NCBI GenBank assembly: GCA_026397235.1
Contig: JAPLVG010000020.1
Coordinates: 26,367 to 64,321, forward strand
DNA from: Candidatus Berkelbacteria bacterium
GTDB taxonomy: Bacteria > Patescibacteriota > UBA1384 > XYA2-FULL-43-10 > CAINNR01
Length of the DNA: 37,955 nucleotides
Reading direction: 5' to 3'
A model generated the notes under the pieces. It did not search any database and had not been told where the DNA came from. It saw only the letters and a list, made by a program, of their open reading frames with translations. The position numbers and the translations under genes are program-made. This document shows, one piece after another, positions 2,352 to 35,127 of the stretch. The stretch's first letter is position 1, and each line of letters begins with the position of its first letter.

Positions 2352-3617
2352 ATGAAAGAATCAATTTTAAACTTAATTCAAAAATATCTGCAGTTTTTGG
2401 CCAGATGGAAAATTAAACGCGCAAAGCCGAAAATAATTGTAATTACTGGATCTTACGGAAAAACTTCCGCTAAGGAAGCAGTTTATTTTGTATTAAATAA
2501 AAAATTTGGCACAGATGTTGGCAAAAATTGGGGCAATATGAACTCAGTTCTAGGTTTGCCCTTAGCAATTCTAGGACTACGAAAATACTCCTTTGGTTTT
2601 GGTTTGTTGTGGAATATTATTCAGGCGAAGTGGAATTTTTTCTTTTATAAATTGCCGAAAATATTAGTTTTAGAAATGGGAATTGACAAACCGGGAGAAA
2701 TGTCACAATTGCTATCGGTCGCTAAACCTGATATTGCCATTATTACCGGAATTTCTGAAACTCATTTGGAAGGTTTAAAAAATCTTGAAGGTGTAAAGAA
2801 GGAAAAGAATTTACTTTTTGAAACTCTGGGAAAAAATGGGGTTGCAATTATTAATGCCGGTGATGAAAATTCTGGTGATTTGAAAATTCCCGATGGCGTC
2901 AAAAAATTAACTTTTGGTAGCATAGACGCTGATATTTCAGCATCCGACGTTGAAGTTACTACCGGTGGAACTGATTTTGAATTAAATATTCTAGGCAAAA
3001 AAGTTTCTATCAAATCAAAACTTATCGGAAAACATTCCATTCAGAATCTATTGATCGCGGCTGTGGTTGCTGATCAATTTGGAATTAATATTGAAGAAAT
3101 TAAAGTGTTGTTAGAGCAAATTAAACCGCAAAATGGTCGGATGAAAATAATTAAAATTCAAAATCAGATAACGCTAATTGACGACAGTTACAATTCGAAT
3201 CCAAAATCAGCCGAAGAAGCACTTTTGGCTTTGTCAGCAATCAAACATAGTGGCAGGAAAATAGCGATTTTAGGGAATATGAATGAACTCGGCAGTTACA
3301 GCGAGGAAGCTCACATTAGAGTTGGTAAGGCTGCTGGAAAATCTGTTGATTTATTCATTGCTACTGGTGATAATGCTGATTATCTGGCTAGCGGGGCCAA
3401 AGAGTCGGGAATGGATCAAGACAAAATTATTAAGTTTGGGTCAACCGAAGAATTAATTAAAAAAATTGATAGTGTCATCAAACCAGAGGACTTAATTTTA
3501 ATAAAAGGTTCTCAGAATCGTGTTCGGCTTGAACGATTGGTAAAATATTTAGTAAATGATGATGAATCAGCGAAAAAAATTCTTGTACGACAAGAGAAAA
3601 AGTGGCAAGATAAATGA
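2352..3617 (+). CDS. murF: UDP-MurNAc-tripeptide--D-Ala-D-Ala ligase
   Basis: A 421-residue Mur ligase. The ATP loop GSYGKTS is at 33-39, followed by the central Mur ligase domain and the C-terminal domain. The motif DDSYNSNPKSAEEAL (about 277-291), then the LGNMNELG stretch and the final IKGSQNRVRLERLV block, are typical of MurF rather than MurE. MurF adds D-Ala-D-Ala to UDP-MurNAc-tripeptide in the cytoplasm. An N-terminal stretch resembling the usual MurF substrate domain is short, since the ATP loop comes only 33 residues in. Neither murE nor ddl, which make its substrates, is in the window. Confidence 0.88.
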   Translation: MKESILNLIQKYLQFLARWKIKRAKPKIIVITGSYGKTSAKEAVYFVLNKKFGTDVGKNWGNMNSVLGLPLAILGLRKYSFGFGLLWNIIQAKWNFFFYKLPKILVLEMGIDKPGEMSQLLSVAKPDIAIITGISETHLEGLKNLEGVKKEKNLLFETLGKNGVAIINAGDENSGDLKIPDGVKKLTFGSIDADISASDVEVTTGGTDFELNILGKKVSIKSKLIGKHSIQNLLIAAVVADQFGINIEEIKVLLEQIKPQNGRMKIIKIQNQITLIDDSYNSNPKSAEEALLALSAIKHSGRKIAILGNMNELGSYSEEAHIRVGKAAGKSVDLFIATGDNADYLASGAKESGMDQDKIIKFGSTEELIKKIDSVIKPEDLILIKGSQNRVRLERLVKYLVNDDESAKKILVRQEKKWQDK

Positions 3618-3660
3618 TAACTAACAAATATTAAATAAATTTGAAAATCCAAGGAGTTTT

Positions 3661-4683
3661 ATGGACAAAATTGAGATGATTGTACTGTATAAGAACGATT
3701 TTATTCGTTTTTTCTGGTTGACGGGGTTATCATTTTTAATTGCCATGATTTGGACGCCGTTTTTTACTAATTTTCTCTATAAATATAAATTAGGCAAGCG
3801 GATTCGTGTTGATAAAAACACGCCAATTTATTCAAAGTTGCATGCTCACAAGGCTGGCACTCCAGCAATTGGTGGCATATTAATTTGGGTAACTACCGCG
3901 GTGTTAACTATTATCTTTAATTTATCGCGCCAGGCAACTTGGCTGCCGCTTTTTTCACTTATCAGTGCGTCAATAATTGGTTTAATTGACGATTTAATGA
4001 ATGTTTATGGTATCGGTGTCCACGGTGGAGGTCTTAGATTTCGAGAAAAGCTTCCGTTATATATTGCTATTGCCGCTGTTGGCGGTTGGTGGTTTTATTC
4101 CAAGCTTGGCTGGAACTCTATCCACATACCAGGTGGAGGCGATCATATTATTGGCGGCTGGTATATTCCACTGTTCATTATTGCTCTTGTCTGGGCTGCG
4201 TTCGCATCGAATGCCACAGACGGCCTTGACGGCCTTGCTGGCGGAGTATTTGCCACTTCATACGGCGCTTATGCAATAATTTGTTTGGTTCAAGGGAAAA
4301 CTGGCCTAGCACTTTTTTGTGGTACCGTTATGGGTGCTCTACTAGCATTTCTATGGTTTAATATTCAACCGGCTAGATTTTTTATGGGTGACACCGGTTC
4401 AATGGGTTTAGGAATTACTTTGGGTGTCATTGCTTTTCTAACTAATTCGATTATTGTATTTCCTATTATCACCTTAATATTTACGATTGAAGGTCTGTCT
4501 TTTCTGGTCCAGCGGTTCTGGAGAATTACCTTTAAAAGAAAATTGTTTTTGTCGTCACCAATTCATCATCACCTAGAAGCAATCGGTTGGCCTGAGCAGA
4601 AAATTGTAATGCGCTTCTGGGTCATTAGTGCAGTTTCAGCTTTTATTGGCTTGGCGATTGCACTTTTTGGCCACGGATTCTAA
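3661..4683 (+). CDS. mraY: Phospho-MurNAc-pentapeptide transferase
   Basis: A 340-residue multi-pass membrane enzyme that transfers phospho-MurNAc-pentapeptide to undecaprenyl phosphate to form lipid I. Family motifs are visible: IDD at 109-111, NATDGLDGLAGG from residue 184, the FMGDTGSMG block from 241 and the HHH at 302-304 in SPIHHHLE. Length is typical. An AAGGAG ribosome site precedes the ATG. It follows murF by 43 nt in the same direction, so the two are probably co-transcribed. Confidence 0.95.
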   Translation: MDKIEMIVLYKNDFIRFFWLTGLSFLIAMIWTPFFTNFLYKYKLGKRIRVDKNTPIYSKLHAHKAGTPAIGGILIWVTTAVLTIIFNLSRQATWLPLFSLISASIIGLIDDLMNVYGIGVHGGGLRFREKLPLYIAIAAVGGWWFYSKLGWNSIHIPGGGDHIIGGWYIPLFIIALVWAAFASNATDGLDGLAGGVFATSYGAYAIICLVQGKTGLALFCGTVMGALLAFLWFNIQPARFFMGDTGSMGLGITLGVIAFLTNSIIVFPIITLIFTIEGLSFLVQRFWRITFKRKLFLSSPIHHHLEAIGWPEQKIVMRFWVISAVSAFIGLAIALFGHGF

Positions 4684-16133: not shown

Positions 16134-16177
16134 TAATATTATCGATTTGGCGCGATCGCGCCAAATCGATAATATTA
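16134..16177. repeat. Perfect 44-bp palindrome, CGATCG family copy 1
   Basis: Perfectly self-complementary over 44 bp. The left half up to the centre ends ATATTATCGATTTGGCGCGA. It overlaps the TAA stop of the PaaX-like gene 1 (16175-16177). The central 38 bp recur on the other side of that gene. Confidence 0.97.
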
Positions 16178-16720
16178 TTTCTTTAAATCCGCCTTAAATA
16201 ATTGGACTAAATGATCATCAATGTCAGTCTTGTCTACCCGCAGGCAAGCAACATATTTTCGTAGTGCAAGTTCTTCGATGATTAAATCAACTTCATCAGC
16301 TTTTACGAATGGACAAGCCCACAAACTTTTTTGCACTTGCTTATAACCAATCCGCCGAATTGACCGCGACAGATGCCGTCTTTTTGTCTTTAAGCTTTCG
16401 GGAATATCCCATGACACCATCCTCCATTTTCCATCAACCATTTTCTCAGAGGAATTTTCGATAAGTTTTATCCTTCCTTTTCTGGTTAGTTCCACGCTGC
16501 CATAATTTCGATCAATTTTAATATATCCGCGGTGCTCGATACTTTTAAGGTTGTTGTAATACCACTTAGTGTGTCTCCGCGGATCGCCTTGTTGGTAATA
16601 AACACTTCTTTTGTAAGCCTCATAACTGAACAATTCGTGTCCTTCTTCCAAAATGTCAGAAATTGTTTGTAAAATAGTAATGGTAGTATTTTTGATTTTT
16701 TCCAGATCTATTTTGATCAT
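16175..16720 (-). CDS. PaaX-like regulator with Cas2-type domain, copy 1
   Basis: The 181-residue protein has an N-terminal winged-helix-like part (about 10-85) and a C-terminal domain (about 96-175) resembling the Cas2-like middle domain of PaaX. It reads KWRMVSWDIPESLKTKRRHL, and then SIRRIGYKQVQKSLWACPF. Asp105 sits where Cas2 nucleases carry their conserved beta-1 Asp. PaaX proteins are GntR-like repressors that bind palindromes. The gene is alone, against the neighbouring genes, and is tightly bracketed by two perfect palindromes of identical core. A GCTATAAT extended -10 is 6 nt before the ATG and 3 nt from the upstream palindrome, which suggests autoregulation. Catalytic activity is unproven. 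Confidence 0.8.
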   Translation of the reverse strand: MIKIDLEKIKNTTITILQTISDILEEGHELFSYEAYKRSVYYQQGDPRRHTKWYYNNLKSIEHRGYIKIDRNYGSVELTRKGRIKLIENSSEKMVDGKWRMVSWDIPESLKTKRRHLSRSIRRIGYKQVQKSLWACPFVKADEVDLIIEELALRKYVACLRVDKTDIDDHLVQLFKADLKK

Positions 16721-16735: not shown

Positions 16736-16775
16736 AAATTATCGATTTGGCGCGATCGCGCCAAATCGATAATTT
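16736..16775. repeat. Perfect 40-bp palindrome, CGATCG family copy 2
   Basis: Perfect palindrome over 40 bp. The left half is AAATTATCGATTTGGCGCGA. It shares its central 38 bp with 16134-16177 except the outermost A/T bases, and it abuts the promoter of the PaaX-like gene 1, so it is a likely operator or a mobile-unit end. Confidence 0.97.
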
Positions 16776-22394: not shown

Positions 22395-22417
22395 AATCAA
22401 AAAAATCGGAGTAATCC
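22395..22417 (-). terminator. Rho-independent terminator
   Basis: On the minus strand ATCGGA-TTAC-TCCGAT is followed by seven T residues. It lies just past the fragment 22447-22495, so it was probably the original terminator of the PP2C/propeller gene before the PaaX-like unit came between them. Confidence 0.8.
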
Positions 22418-22446: not shown

Positions 22447-22495
22447 TAGGTGTCGAGTTCGAAGACTTTGGTGTCGGAAATCAGCCAGAGTTTTT
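22447..22495 (-). pseudogene. Duplicate 3' end of the PP2C/propeller gene
   Basis: These 49 nt match 23232-23280 with three differences. On the minus strand they encode the last residues LWLISDTKVFELDT and the stop of the 713-residue protein. One difference is synonymous, and upstream codons still read TSLQK where the intact gene has EKLKK. It is a gene remnant or one arm of an att-like direct repeat around PaaX-like gene 2. Confidence 0.85.
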
Positions 22496-22536
22496 GCAGT
22501 GATGTTTATTTGTTTTGCGTTGTTCACTGAGTGTTT

Positions 22537-22570
22537 ATTCAGATTTATACCGAACGGGACAAATCTGAAT
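22537..22570. repeat. 34-bp imperfect palindrome, 3' of PaaX-like gene 2
   Basis: ATTCAGATTT and AAATCTGAAT arms around a CCGAACGG core. A close copy is at 23148-23181 on the other side of the gene. It lies 44 nt after the gene's stop. Confidence 0.85.
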
Positions 22571-22613
22571 GAGAATGAATCAAACAATATAAATCAAATC
22601 GCGAAACGATAGT

Positions 22614-23138
22614 TCAATTAGACAACAATTTATTGATATGCGGTTCGGCGTTTGATTTTGAACAAACAAAATAGGCGATGTAATCACGTAGTTTTAATTC
22701 ATCAATTATCAAATCGATTTCATCGGCCTTTATCAACTTGCAAATCCACAAACTCTTTTGCATTTTTTTGAAACCAATTCTCCGAATTGAGCGACAAAAT
22801 TGTCGGCGTTTACTCGCCATTGTTTCCGGAATATCGTAAGAAATGATTCTGATTTTTCCATCTTCTCGATCGTCGCGAGACGTTTCTAGATCTTTAATTT
22901 TACCCTTAGTTGTAAGTTTGATGTCGTATGAGCCGTCAGTTTTTTTGTTCAACTCAATATAGCCGCTGCGTTTTAGATTTTTTAAATGATCGATTAATTT
23001 ATCAGCCAGAAATTCATTGCCATTCAAATTATTATCGAGCGACTTGGAATTTAAAAAAGAGCCAAGTAGTGCTTTTGGCACCCGTGCGATTATATTGATG
23101 AGTGTCCAGGTAATTTCCCCAAACTCTATATTTCTCAT
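22614..23138 (-). CDS. PaaX-like regulator with Cas2-type domain, copy 2
   Basis: A 174-residue homologue of the protein at 16175-16720. The N-terminal helix-turn-helix part (about 5-80) is divergent; the C-terminal Cas2-like domain is well conserved: KIRIISYDIPETMASKRRQF with Asp102, then SIRRIGFKKMQKSLWICKL and IKADEIDLIIDELKLRDYI. A GGAGG ribosome site 5 nt before the ATG fixes the start. Related but different palindromes from those of copy 1 flank it (22537-22570, 23148-23181), and the whole unit is bounded by a 49-bp repeat of the neighbouring gene's end. It may be a self-regulating repressor, a mobile-unit protein, or both. Confidence 0.8.
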   Translation of the reverse strand: MRNIEFGEITWTLINIIARVPKALLGSFLNSKSLDNNLNGNEFLADKLIDHLKNLKRSGYIELNKKTDGSYDIKLTTKGKIKDLETSRDDREDGKIRIISYDIPETMASKRRQFCRSIRRIGFKKMQKSLWICKLIKADEIDLIIDELKLRDYIAYFVCSKSNAEPHINKLLSN

Positions 23139-23147
23139 TTCACCTCC

Positions 23148-23181
23148 ATTCAGATTTGTACCGAACGGACTATATCTGAAT
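23148..23181. promoter_or_regulatory. 34-bp palindrome, likely operator of PaaX-like gene 2
   Basis: Arms ATTCAGAT / ATCTGAAT around CCGAACGG, lying between a probable -10 (TATGAT on the minus strand, about 23189-23194, with TTATCA 18 nt further upstream) and the ribosome site. A protein bound here would block transcription near +1. Confidence 0.65.
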
Positions 23182-23231
23182 AAATGTTATCATAATATTT
23201 AGAATAAGAAATTGATAATTTAGTAGAAGTT

Positions 23232-25373
23232 CTAGGTGTCGAGTTCGAAGACTTTGGTGTCGGAGATGAGCCAAAGTTTTTTTAGTTTTTCGTTAACGGC
23301 GAAACCTGTTAGCGGCAAAGAACTATCGAGAACATATTGTTTTTGATAAACACCAGTTTTAGTAAATTGCAAAACACGGTTGGCTGATTTGTCTAGAACA
23401 TACAAAGAATTCGAACTTTGGTCGGTGAAGAAATTGACCGGGGCCGTGATTTTTGTATCAGGTGTTGGAATTCCGGAAAGCGTAAAATTTGTATCCTCAA
23501 CCGATTTAGCAATTTTTACCAACACGCCATCGGATTTCAAATCCCAGACATTGCCGTCAACGGCTATTTTGACGCTGCCCTTAAGCGGGATCGGTTGTTT
23601 AGTAATATATGACACACCTTTTGAATAGCTACCAGAAGAGAGAGTGTGTTTCCAGATTTGGCCAGCGTCTCCATCCAGCAAATAAATGTTAGACGAATAA
23701 ACTGCTATTGCGGCTGATTTTTCCCAAGTTGCATCGGTTACCAGTTTGATCTCTGCAATTGATTTCGAACTAATGTCTAATTTAGCCACAGTTGGCTTAT
23801 CAGTCAGGAGAAGTATGGAATTATCACTGTCATTGTAAATGGCATCGACAACCTTTCCAAAATTGTTGTCAATTTGACCAAAACTTTCGGCAGTTTTTGC
23901 CCGGGTATCGTACTCGGCAATTTTGCCATCGGCTGATATTGAGAAAAGATTAGCGCCAACGGCATAAGTTCTAATTCCGTTGTCCGAAAAGGAAAAAGTT
24001 GGGCTAGTGGCGGCGGAAATCCGGGTAGCAACATTCAAAGTATCCAACTTGGCCTGGATTTGTGCCAGTAAATTTTTAGCTTCATCAGCAATTGCCGGCG
24101 TTGATGTTGCTTTAGAAGCCGCATCACGTGCAGCAATCAATTCATCTTTAGCACCAGTTTTCTTTAATCCCAAATCATCCAGCGCTTTGGAATATAAACT
24201 TCTGGCGGAATCTAAATTGGCGATATTTTGATTGGAGGTGTTAATGTTTTGGTTCTTTTTGCTATTCATTTGGATTTTAATGAATCCGATGGCCAAAAGA
24301 ACAACTAAAATTGTAATATAAAGATATTTGCGATTTTCCGGTTTTGCAAGTGCTTTTGACCATAAAATCAAGTTGGCAAAAAAATAATTGGTTCCAGACA
24401 GAAAACCTGATTTCTTATTTGATTTACGGTTGAAATAATTGACACGGGGAACGCTGCCAAGCCGTTCTGTGATTGGCTGCAAAGTTTTTCCGGAGGAATC
24501 TTTAATTCGGCTACCAATATTTTTAGTGCCAGAAGAAACCTTTGGTTGGATTTGTTTTGACCAAAATTCACCAAATTTCTTGGCGCCACGACCAGTAGCT
24601 TTTGCCCCGCGACCCAAGCCTTTAAAAAACATCTTAGTATAATGCATTGGCGCCGAATCGGGAATATCATCCAAGAAAATAATGTCAGGTTTTTCGTCTT
24701 CTTCTAGTTGGTTTTCCTCATCGAGTAAATCGAAGACCATTAAATTAACGTCGCGAATTTTAGACCGGCGCAAATTTTTTGTAATCTCGGCAATCGCATC
24801 TTTATAAGACAGTGTGGCGAAAATTTGGCGCAATCGATCAAGCGATAGGTGTGCGTAGAACTCAGTGTTGGCAATTATCACTTTATCAAGCGCGGCAACG
24901 CTGCCGTCAATAATTGAAACAAAGGTTTTGAGTGGGTGAGCTTCTTCATTTTCGACTGGTTTCTCGGTAATATGAGAGATTTTGTTACCGCGGAAAAGAT
25001 AGCCAGAAATTTTACCGGTTTGAGAAAAAATTAACTCGCCACCAGAAATAAGCCCAACAATAGCGTTTAATTTTCCAATCCACTCATGTTCACCAGCCTG
25101 TGAAACATCGCCAAGCGCGGCATTGATTTTTTTTATTACAGTCTCAAAACTGTCGGCATTATCACTGCCATCATGCCAGTCGTCACCCAAAGTTCCAACA
25201 ATAGCTTTTTTTATTTTTTCGCCATCAACCCAAGGAGTATCTATCTCAATCAAATAAAAAAACCGATCCAAAGAATCCTTTGGCTCTATTGTTCCAACGA
25301 AGAGAAATCTTTCCTTGTGCTTTCCCTTGGTCGCTATTTGCCCAATTCTAGCTACAAGATTTTTGTCTGACAT
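23232..25373 (-). CDS. PP2C-like / beta-propeller membrane protein
   Basis: A 713-residue protein. Residues 1-215 resemble a PP2C-type phosphatase fold (FLFVGTIEPKDSLDRFFYLI, GLISGGELIFSQTGKISGYL, then VSIIDGSVAALDKVIIANTEF), but the full set of metal-binding Asp motifs is not evident, so activity is uncertain. A basic linker (about 245-345) precedes a membrane helix (350-368). A short helical stretch (385-445) leads to repeated beta units (450-713) like an NHL/YVTN propeller, ending VLQFTKTGVYQKQY and LWLISDTKVFELDT. Topology suggests a cytoplasmic phosphatase-like sensor linked to an outside propeller. I know similar proteins only from CPR genomes. TTGATT-18-TAGAAT upstream is its likely promoter. 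Confidence 0.75.
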   Translation of the reverse strand: MSDKNLVARIGQIATKGKHKERFLFVGTIEPKDSLDRFFYLIEIDTPWVDGEKIKKAIVGTLGDDWHDGSDNADSFETVIKKINAALGDVSQAGEHEWIGKLNAIVGLISGGELIFSQTGKISGYLFRGNKISHITEKPVENEEAHPLKTFVSIIDGSVAALDKVIIANTEFYAHLSLDRLRQIFATLSYKDAIAEITKNLRRSKIRDVNLMVFDLLDEENQLEEDEKPDIIFLDDIPDSAPMHYTKMFFKGLGRGAKATGRGAKKFGEFWSKQIQPKVSSGTKNIGSRIKDSSGKTLQPITERLGSVPRVNYFNRKSNKKSGFLSGTNYFFANLILWSKALAKPENRKYLYITILVVLLAIGFIKIQMNSKKNQNINTSNQNIANLDSARSLYSKALDDLGLKKTGAKDELIAARDAASKATSTPAIADEAKNLLAQIQAKLDTLNVATRISAATSPTFSFSDNGIRTYAVGANLFSISADGKIAEYDTRAKTAESFGQIDNNFGKVVDAIYNDSDNSILLLTDKPTVAKLDISSKSIAEIKLVTDATWEKSAAIAVYSSNIYLLDGDAGQIWKHTLSSGSYSKGVSYITKQPIPLKGSVKIAVDGNVWDLKSDGVLVKIAKSVEDTNFTLSGIPTPDTKITAPVNFFTDQSSNSLYVLDKSANRVLQFTKTGVYQKQYVLDSSLPLTGFAVNEKLKKLWLISDTKVFELDT

Positions 25374-25506: not shown

Positions 25507-25917
25507 ATGAATCTCAGTGGTATCATTGTCAGGCTTGCCGAAGGCAATAGGCTGGTGCTGATGACACGAGACGGCAATTTGCGTGCCGCTGGGCTATGCC
25601 ACCGGCTCTGCGAACTGGACTTCGATCCCGCTTCCCGAGGCACTTGGGCTGAGGCCGGCTCGGTCTGGGATGCGCTGGCTCAGCTCAATCTCAGTCTCGT
25701 GTTCGGACCGTGGAATTACGAACAGATGTACGGCCCGAACGGCTACTTCCCGACGAGGCATGGAGCGGAGACGTATGGACCGCTGGACGAGTTGGTCCGC
25801 GCTGGTCGCAAGGTGGACATTCGGCAGAGCGCGTCTTACAAGATCGAACTGACCTGCGGCGCACTGGAGATCGTGGCCGACAGCCTCGATGAGGCGATCA
25901 TGGCGGTCAGAACATGA
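25507..25917 (+). CDS. GC-rich orphan protein
   Basis: A 136-residue soluble protein (MNLSGIIVRLAEGNRLVLMT...), with Trp/Tyr/Gly-rich centre (FGPWNYEQMYGPNGYFPTRH) and a C-terminal alpha/beta stretch. GC is close to 58-60% against about 38% around it, so codon use is quite unlike the neighbours. No family is recognised. GAGAAAGC is a weak ribosome site. A hairpin with a T-run follows. The strong composition jump points to acquired DNA; I cannot name the donor. A minus-strand frame in the same place gives a much less protein-like product. Confidence 0.65.
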   Translation: MNLSGIIVRLAEGNRLVLMTRDGNLRAAGLCHRLCELDFDPASRGTWAEAGSVWDALAQLNLSLVFGPWNYEQMYGPNGYFPTRHGAETYGPLDELVRAGRKVDIRQSASYKIELTCGALEIVADSLDEAIMAVRT

Positions 25918-34527: not shown

Positions 34528-35127
34528 ATGAAAAAAACTGAGAAAAAAATATCCCAATTGTATAATTCTGGTTTATCAGTTAACCAGATTTCTGAAAAAT
34601 TAGGAATAACTGCTTCGAGAATTCGGTATTTTATGAAAAAGAGTTTGATCATATGCAGAAACCACAGTGATGCTAGTAAATTACTTCATATGACGAAGTT
34701 TGGAAAAAAACAATTCCAGATTAAAAAAAATTTGACTGTGGAAGAAGAAAATTTGCGTGTTGCTGGGATTATGCTTTACTGGGGAGAGGGAACAAAGATG
34801 GGTAATAGCGTAGTTTTTAGCAACAGTGATCCACAGATGATTGTATTATTTCTAGCATTTTTAAGAACAGTTTGCGGAATTGATGAAAATAGATTACATC
34901 TTTTGCTTCATGTATACGACGATCAGAATGAAATGCAGTTAAAATCTTTTTGGTCACGAATTACAAATATTCCCATTAACCAGTTTAGTAAGACGTTTGT
35001 TCACCATGGAAAAACTGGTTCGTACAAAAAAGTCTCTAAATTCGGGACAATCTCCCTAAGATATTCTGACAAAGAGTTATTGAGAGTAATTAATGATTGG
35101 ATTGATAAATTTTGTTTGCCGATGTAG
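34528..35127 (+). CDS. HTH protein with LAGLIDADG-like domain
   Basis: A 199-residue protein. Residues about 5-35 form a helix-turn-helix (QLYNSGLSVNQISEKLGITA). From about 78 it resembles single-motif LAGLIDADG-type proteins: AGIMLYWGEGTK with the acidic Glu, then VVFSNSDPQMIVLFLAFLRT, LHLLLHVYDDQN, FWSRITNIP and FVHHGKTGSYKK. Similar proteins occur in Actinobacteria and CPR, function unknown; DNA binding or cleavage is likely. Its last codons and TAG stop lie inside the tRNA-Thr gene (10-nt overlap). Leaderless promoter, with a palindrome that may allow autoregulation. Confidence 0.75.
   Translation: MKKTEKKISQLYNSGLSVNQISEKLGITASRIRYFMKKSLIICRNHSDASKLLHMTKFGKKQFQIKKNLTVEEENLRVAGIMLYWGEGTKMGNSVVFSNSDPQMIVLFLAFLRTVCGIDENRLHLLLHVYDDQNEMQLKSFWSRITNIPINQFSKTFVHHGKTGSYKKVSKFGTISLRYSDKELLRVINDWIDKFCLPM

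Follow-up and report, generated by a model that had tools for sequence, protein, structure and literature searches.

Short winged-helix/Cas2-like genes between matched palindromes: a candidate family of small single-gene elements in tiny-genome bacteria

Short genes encoding a stand-alone protein with a winged helix and a Cas2-like domain, enclosed by a matched pair of ~38-bp palindromes, appear, in bacteria with tiny genomes, to form small mobile elements of a type not described before. The window, a 37,955-nucleotide stretch of a Candidatus Berkelbacteria genome, contains two of them (Table 1). The 174-aa gene and its palindromes, for which the number expected in shuffles is 0, form a unit of ~645 bp (22537-23181) that probably belongs to a phylum-wide family of single-gene elements, and the palindromes are likely its ends. 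The palindrome around the 181-aa gene is perfect and differs from the one around the 174-aa gene; each PaaX-like gene in the window therefore has its own matched pair. No description of such an element was found in the open literature that was searched for PaaX or Cas2 together with palindromes or with mobile elements; few subscription papers were covered.

Table 1. Features of the two candidate elements and of the neighbouring gene in the window
Feature	Positions	Strand	Basis
174-aa winged-helix and Cas2-like (PaaX_M) gene	22614-23138	minus	Pfam PaaX_M, E 9e-13
Palindrome 3' of the 174-aa gene, probable element end	22537-22570		Sequence, pair matching
Palindrome just 5' of the 174-aa gene start codon, probable other element end	23148-23181		Sequence, pair matching
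Detached copy of the 3' end codons of the 713-aa gene	22447-22495	minus	Matches 23232-23280 at all but 3 of 49 nt
Functional 3' end of the 713-aa gene, second repeat copy	23232-23280	minus	Sequence
Hairpin and T run, terminator-like, behind the detached 3'-end copy	22395-22417	minus	Read from sequence
713-aa gene, propeller-like, 3' end duplicated	23232-25373	minus	ORF
181-aa PaaX_M/Cas2-like gene of the second such element	16175-16720	minus	Pfam PaaX_M, E 4e-16
Palindrome of the 181-aa gene's element	16138-16173		Identical to 16738-16773 over 36 nt
Partner palindrome of the 181-aa gene's element	16738-16773		Identical to 16138-16173 over 36 nt

Matched pairs are a common property of the short genes. 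Two matching ~38-bp palindromes flank 63 of the 74 short genes of this type in the class, at a score of at least 50 that takes dyads and identity together. Long PaaX_M genes, present at about one per genome, serve as an internal control, and at the same score one of 24 has a matched pair; this exception (231 aa) may belong with the short genes. Both the pair-score threshold and the size cut-off between short and long were set after the data had been inspected. A similarity score of at least 14 between upstream and downstream flanks was reached at 63 of 102 loci, versus 2 of 600 mismatched pairings, and these 63 include a few non-palindromes, e.g. the 49-bp repeat discussed below. The genome of the window (G000, 0.93 Mb) has 11 genes of this kind and a fragment at a contig end, and its relatives in the first survey have 0 to 9 each. 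Of 287 genomes sampled across the phylum, 93 contain a match in a profile search, and palindrome pairs are also present outside the class. When a single protein was used as the query against the genome contigs, one weak relative was returned, in WWE3; this relative and the genome sizes point to Patescibacteria as the phylum.

The AlphaFold2 model of the 174-aa protein has a mean pLDDT of 84.7; confidence is high in the Cas2-like half and lower at the N-terminus. Foldseek ranks PaaX first, followed by Cas2 and VapD, all with E above 1e-3. The Pfam PaaX_M profile scores 48.6 bits (cut-off 24). The Pfam Cas2 profile falls just below its cut-off (22.3 versus 23.8 bits) and NCBIfam Cas2 further below (18.6 versus 24.5 bits), and membership in Cas2 was not accepted because these matches are under the curated cut-offs. 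NCBIfam PaaX does not match the 174-aa protein and gives the 181-aa protein 19.5 bits against a cut-off of 264.55. Since only PaaX and Cas2 models match these proteins, they would be annotated as regulators or CRISPR remnants. Asp102, Arg111 and Ser129 are invariant in 40 relatives; Asp102 occupies what we take to be the position of the Cas2 catalytic aspartate.

The palindromes have a layered structure. Across the 63 pairs, different families share a symmetric core at offsets 1-4, usually CGA|TCG. Offsets 12-18 are symmetric too, and are the same within an element and different between families, while offsets 5-8 are the least symmetric. This pattern suggests a double-stranded dimer site, at which the winged helices would contact the arms and the Cas2-like domains the core. 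Symmetry is lowest in the inner spacer of the site, which disfavours recognition as a single-stranded hairpin, an alternative that was also considered. Protein similarity and site similarity are weakly correlated (Mantel r 0.15-0.19), and 0 of 2000 permutations gave a value as high. Two genomes of one genus, each a single contig, have elements beside trmD whose proteins are identical at 90 of 160 aa; the arms are quite different, and the two palindrome copies match within each genome. Where orientation could be told, the two copies in an element are direct in 23 cases and inverted in 7. The upstream copy is usually within ~20-100 bp of the start codon.

Palindromes also occur singly outside the elements. 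BLAST with concatenated palindromes, rather than an unbiased whole-genome dyad scan, returned ~24 single copies in G003 and ~7 in G000 (E up to ~1e-3). They are cognate to elements of their own genome, with one weak cross-match between G000 and G003. The palindromes of G000, G003 and G001 gave no convincing single copy in G001 by BLAST. In complete genomes single palindromes are few; the single-contig genome G078 has one strong match. A number of the single palindromes sit between convergent genes or only tens of bases from a stop codon. The prmC gene carries one in-frame palindrome in G000 and one in G003, and G001 and G002 lack both. The G000 copy is 1 base in 38 off the palindrome of element C5_31013, and the G003 copy is of another family and at another position. 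The same prmC loop contains further apparent repeat-derived peptides in G003 and G008 (L255, L258: GSAEARK; CHPGLDPGS...LRGND). Another G003 locus (L135, G003:C18:36498-37554) has two small non-PaaX ORFs (146 and 147 aa) between two single palindromes that belong to one family, perhaps a cargo-carrying version. In three cases, spread over two genomes, a gene with a GPSEEDLQIRPGEPEGR motif is the neighbour of a PaaX element or of a single palindrome (L036, L044, L235).

Comparison between genomes supports gain and loss of the elements. G001, which is in the same genus as G000, lacks an element at the three loci that were read in detail (argS-propeller, radA-PBP and ABC transporter); its remaining loci were covered by a scan for strong dyads, which gave two, at the glycosyltransferase and GNAT loci. 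G003 has a different element at the radA-PBP locus, and single palindromes where G000 has elements at the 3' ends of the glycosyltransferase and peptidase genes. In the best pair of G000 copies (90% identity), similarity ends at the palindrome edge. From these patterns we infer that the elements move. The relatives compared are too diverged to show an exact empty/occupied junction or a target duplication, and none was found; G001 yields no exact junctions for this reason. There are no recent near-identical copies at two sites, and a genus-level search found no strain near-identical to G249.

A mechanism consistent with these sequence patterns can be proposed. The element protein would act as a homodimer, in which the two winged helices would recognise the outer arms of its own palindrome, ~15 bp from the centre on each side and specific to the family, and the Cas2-like domains would come together at the common core (usually CGATCG). 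By catalysis at the core, the protein or host enzymes that it recruits would multiply or move the palindrome, either by itself or together with the gene, and such multiplication or movement would leave dispersed cognate single palindromes. The protein would also control its own expression through the upstream palindrome, whose position close before the start codon makes autoregulation probable. We lean, by a modest margin over even chance, towards a system of palindrome-ended single-gene elements. A broader claim is that these single-gene elements, found across the phylum, are a new class of self-mobilising DNA and a Cas2-based counterpart of the REPtron: each family would have evolved a private palindrome of ~38 bp, which its stand-alone winged-helix/Cas2-like protein would recognise and multiply, with or without the gene; this we put forward tentatively, at a little under an even chance.

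The main rival is that the proteins are ordinary autoregulated repressors of the PaaX type, with the palindromes as operators, the single copies as a regulon and the copy number a result of horizontal gain. PaaX is a transcriptional repressor and is both the closest solved fold and the top structural match. The dyad resembles a double-stranded dimer site, the upstream palindrome lies where an operator could be, and single palindromes could be scattered operators (or recombination scars). However, most elements have a second copy past the stop codon. Single copies are found between convergent genes near stop codons and in frame in prmC, where an operator makes little sense, and the long, single-copy PaaX_M genes lack pairs. 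We therefore regard plain repressors as the less likely account, at roughly one chance in four, and prefer the palindrome-ended element.

Among known systems, the palindrome-ended element appears to work most like a REPtron, in which a RAYT transposase is associated with REP palindromes. RAYTs are tyrosine transposases of the Y1/HUH type and REPs carry a GTAG tag; as here, the gene is flanked by palindromes and single copies of the same family are dispersed (PMC3733652, PMC3116915). Both systems have several gene-specific families per genome, with copies near gene 3' ends and inside genes. In contrast, the protein here consists of a winged helix and a Cas2-like domain and is not Y1/HUH: no family of that type was found in a Pfam search of the element protein, whose fold matches PaaX, Cas2 and VapD. 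The palindrome of ~38 bp has a CGATCG-type core instead of the GTAG tag, and single copies number ~1-24, whereas REPs occur in hundreds. The PaaX repressor (PDB 8a39), the best Foldseek match, shares the order of winged helix and Cas2-like domain and the Pfam PaaX_M family. The 174-aa protein is, however, too short for the C-terminal domain of PaaX (305 aa in the crystal chain), and the element proteins score far under the NCBIfam PaaX cut-off and have flanking palindrome pairs. The C-terminal half has the Cas2 fold of Cas2 and VapD nucleases and weak Cas2 profile matches, but it is fused to a winged helix and its profile scores are under the curated cut-offs; no cas1 was seen beside an element gene within the window. 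Rickettsia palindromic elements are palindromes inserted in frame in protein-coding genes, which resembles the prmC insertions, and we know of no cognate protein for them, whereas every palindrome family here has one. These Rickettsia elements are discussed in PMC3767692 and PMC10969869.

If these proteins mobilise palindromes, REP-like repeats would have a second protein family behind them, unrelated to the first; one source of in-frame insertions into the genes of minimal genomes would be accounted for, and the Cas2 fold would have a role outside CRISPR. Each family is a natural pair of protein and DNA site, so that specificity is directly testable.

The unit in the window lies inside a 49-bp direct repeat with three mismatches, which encloses 736 bp (22496-23231), as described in an earlier note on this DNA. 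We confirmed that the enclosed DNA holds only the PaaX/Cas2-like gene and its two palindromes, and that the right copy is the real 3' end of the 713-aa gene, while the left is a run of detached codons followed by the terminator-like hairpin. The repeat extends to 60 nt at 88%. The name PP2C/propeller given to the 713-aa gene was not borne out: Pfam returned no match, and a beta-propeller repeat scored only below threshold. Of 61 genomes, 48 have an orthologue of this gene. A duplicate of the 3' end is found only in G000 and in G007, a genome of another family, among the propeller loci screened. In G007 the same gene has the same layout: it is followed by a 419-aa ORF and a 174-nt second propeller 3' end. 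The copies in G000 differ at six positions over 54 nt, five of them third codon positions, and those in G007 at 24, of which 20 are third positions. By our own binomial estimate against one third, this bias has a probability of ~7e-7 (G007) and 0.02 (G000). It indicates that both copies evolved as coding sequence, as the alleles of two lineages would.

The earlier note took the repeat for the att site of a very small integrative unit that lacks an integrase. A tiny, mobile-looking unit of this kind fits the wider data, and none of its 736 bp encodes an integrase; the att-site part of the reading is probably wrong. The repeat geometry and the restored 3' end do resemble such a site. However, the same propeller 3' end is doubled in G007 around an unrelated ORF, and the third-position differences also speak against it. 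The repeats sit 36-45 bp outside the palindromes. The PaaX elements surveyed mostly end in matched palindromes, none of the others is bounded by a copy of a neighbouring gene's 3' end, and those at other loci occur without the 49-bp segment that the note expected around them. An att-site unit is thus very improbable, and an old tandem duplication of the propeller gene, with the second copy deleted down to a 3' stub, hardly less so. The latter would leave a piece of the 3' end with the original terminator behind it. Yet the longer remnant of a second propeller gene that the note named as the sign of such a duplication was not seen in relatives, the longest second copy being the 174 nt in G007, and a decaying stub explains the third-position bias less well than two lineages do. 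We read the 49-bp duplication as a separate event unconnected with the palindromes, in which donor DNA would have been inserted through homology. DNA of a diverged relative, with an element behind its own propeller 3' end, would have recombined into the 713-aa gene and left the old propeller 3' end of the recipient stranded.

The G007 locus (L103, G007:C38 ~2590-4130) appears to be a cargo insertion at the same propeller gene without a PaaX gene; the 419-aa ORF has its own promoter region and terminator behind the propeller gene, and the 3'-end copy that follows is diverged. A 77-bp direct repeat, unrelated to the 49-bp one, lies outside a PaaX element elsewhere in G007 (L064, G007:C1) and contains TGTCATTGCGAG, which recurs nearby. 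The window also contains two genes whose products were assigned to no family: an apparent orphan ORF of 136 aa at 25507-25917 and, at 34528-35127, a gene for a 199-aa protein with weak helix-turn-helix matches.
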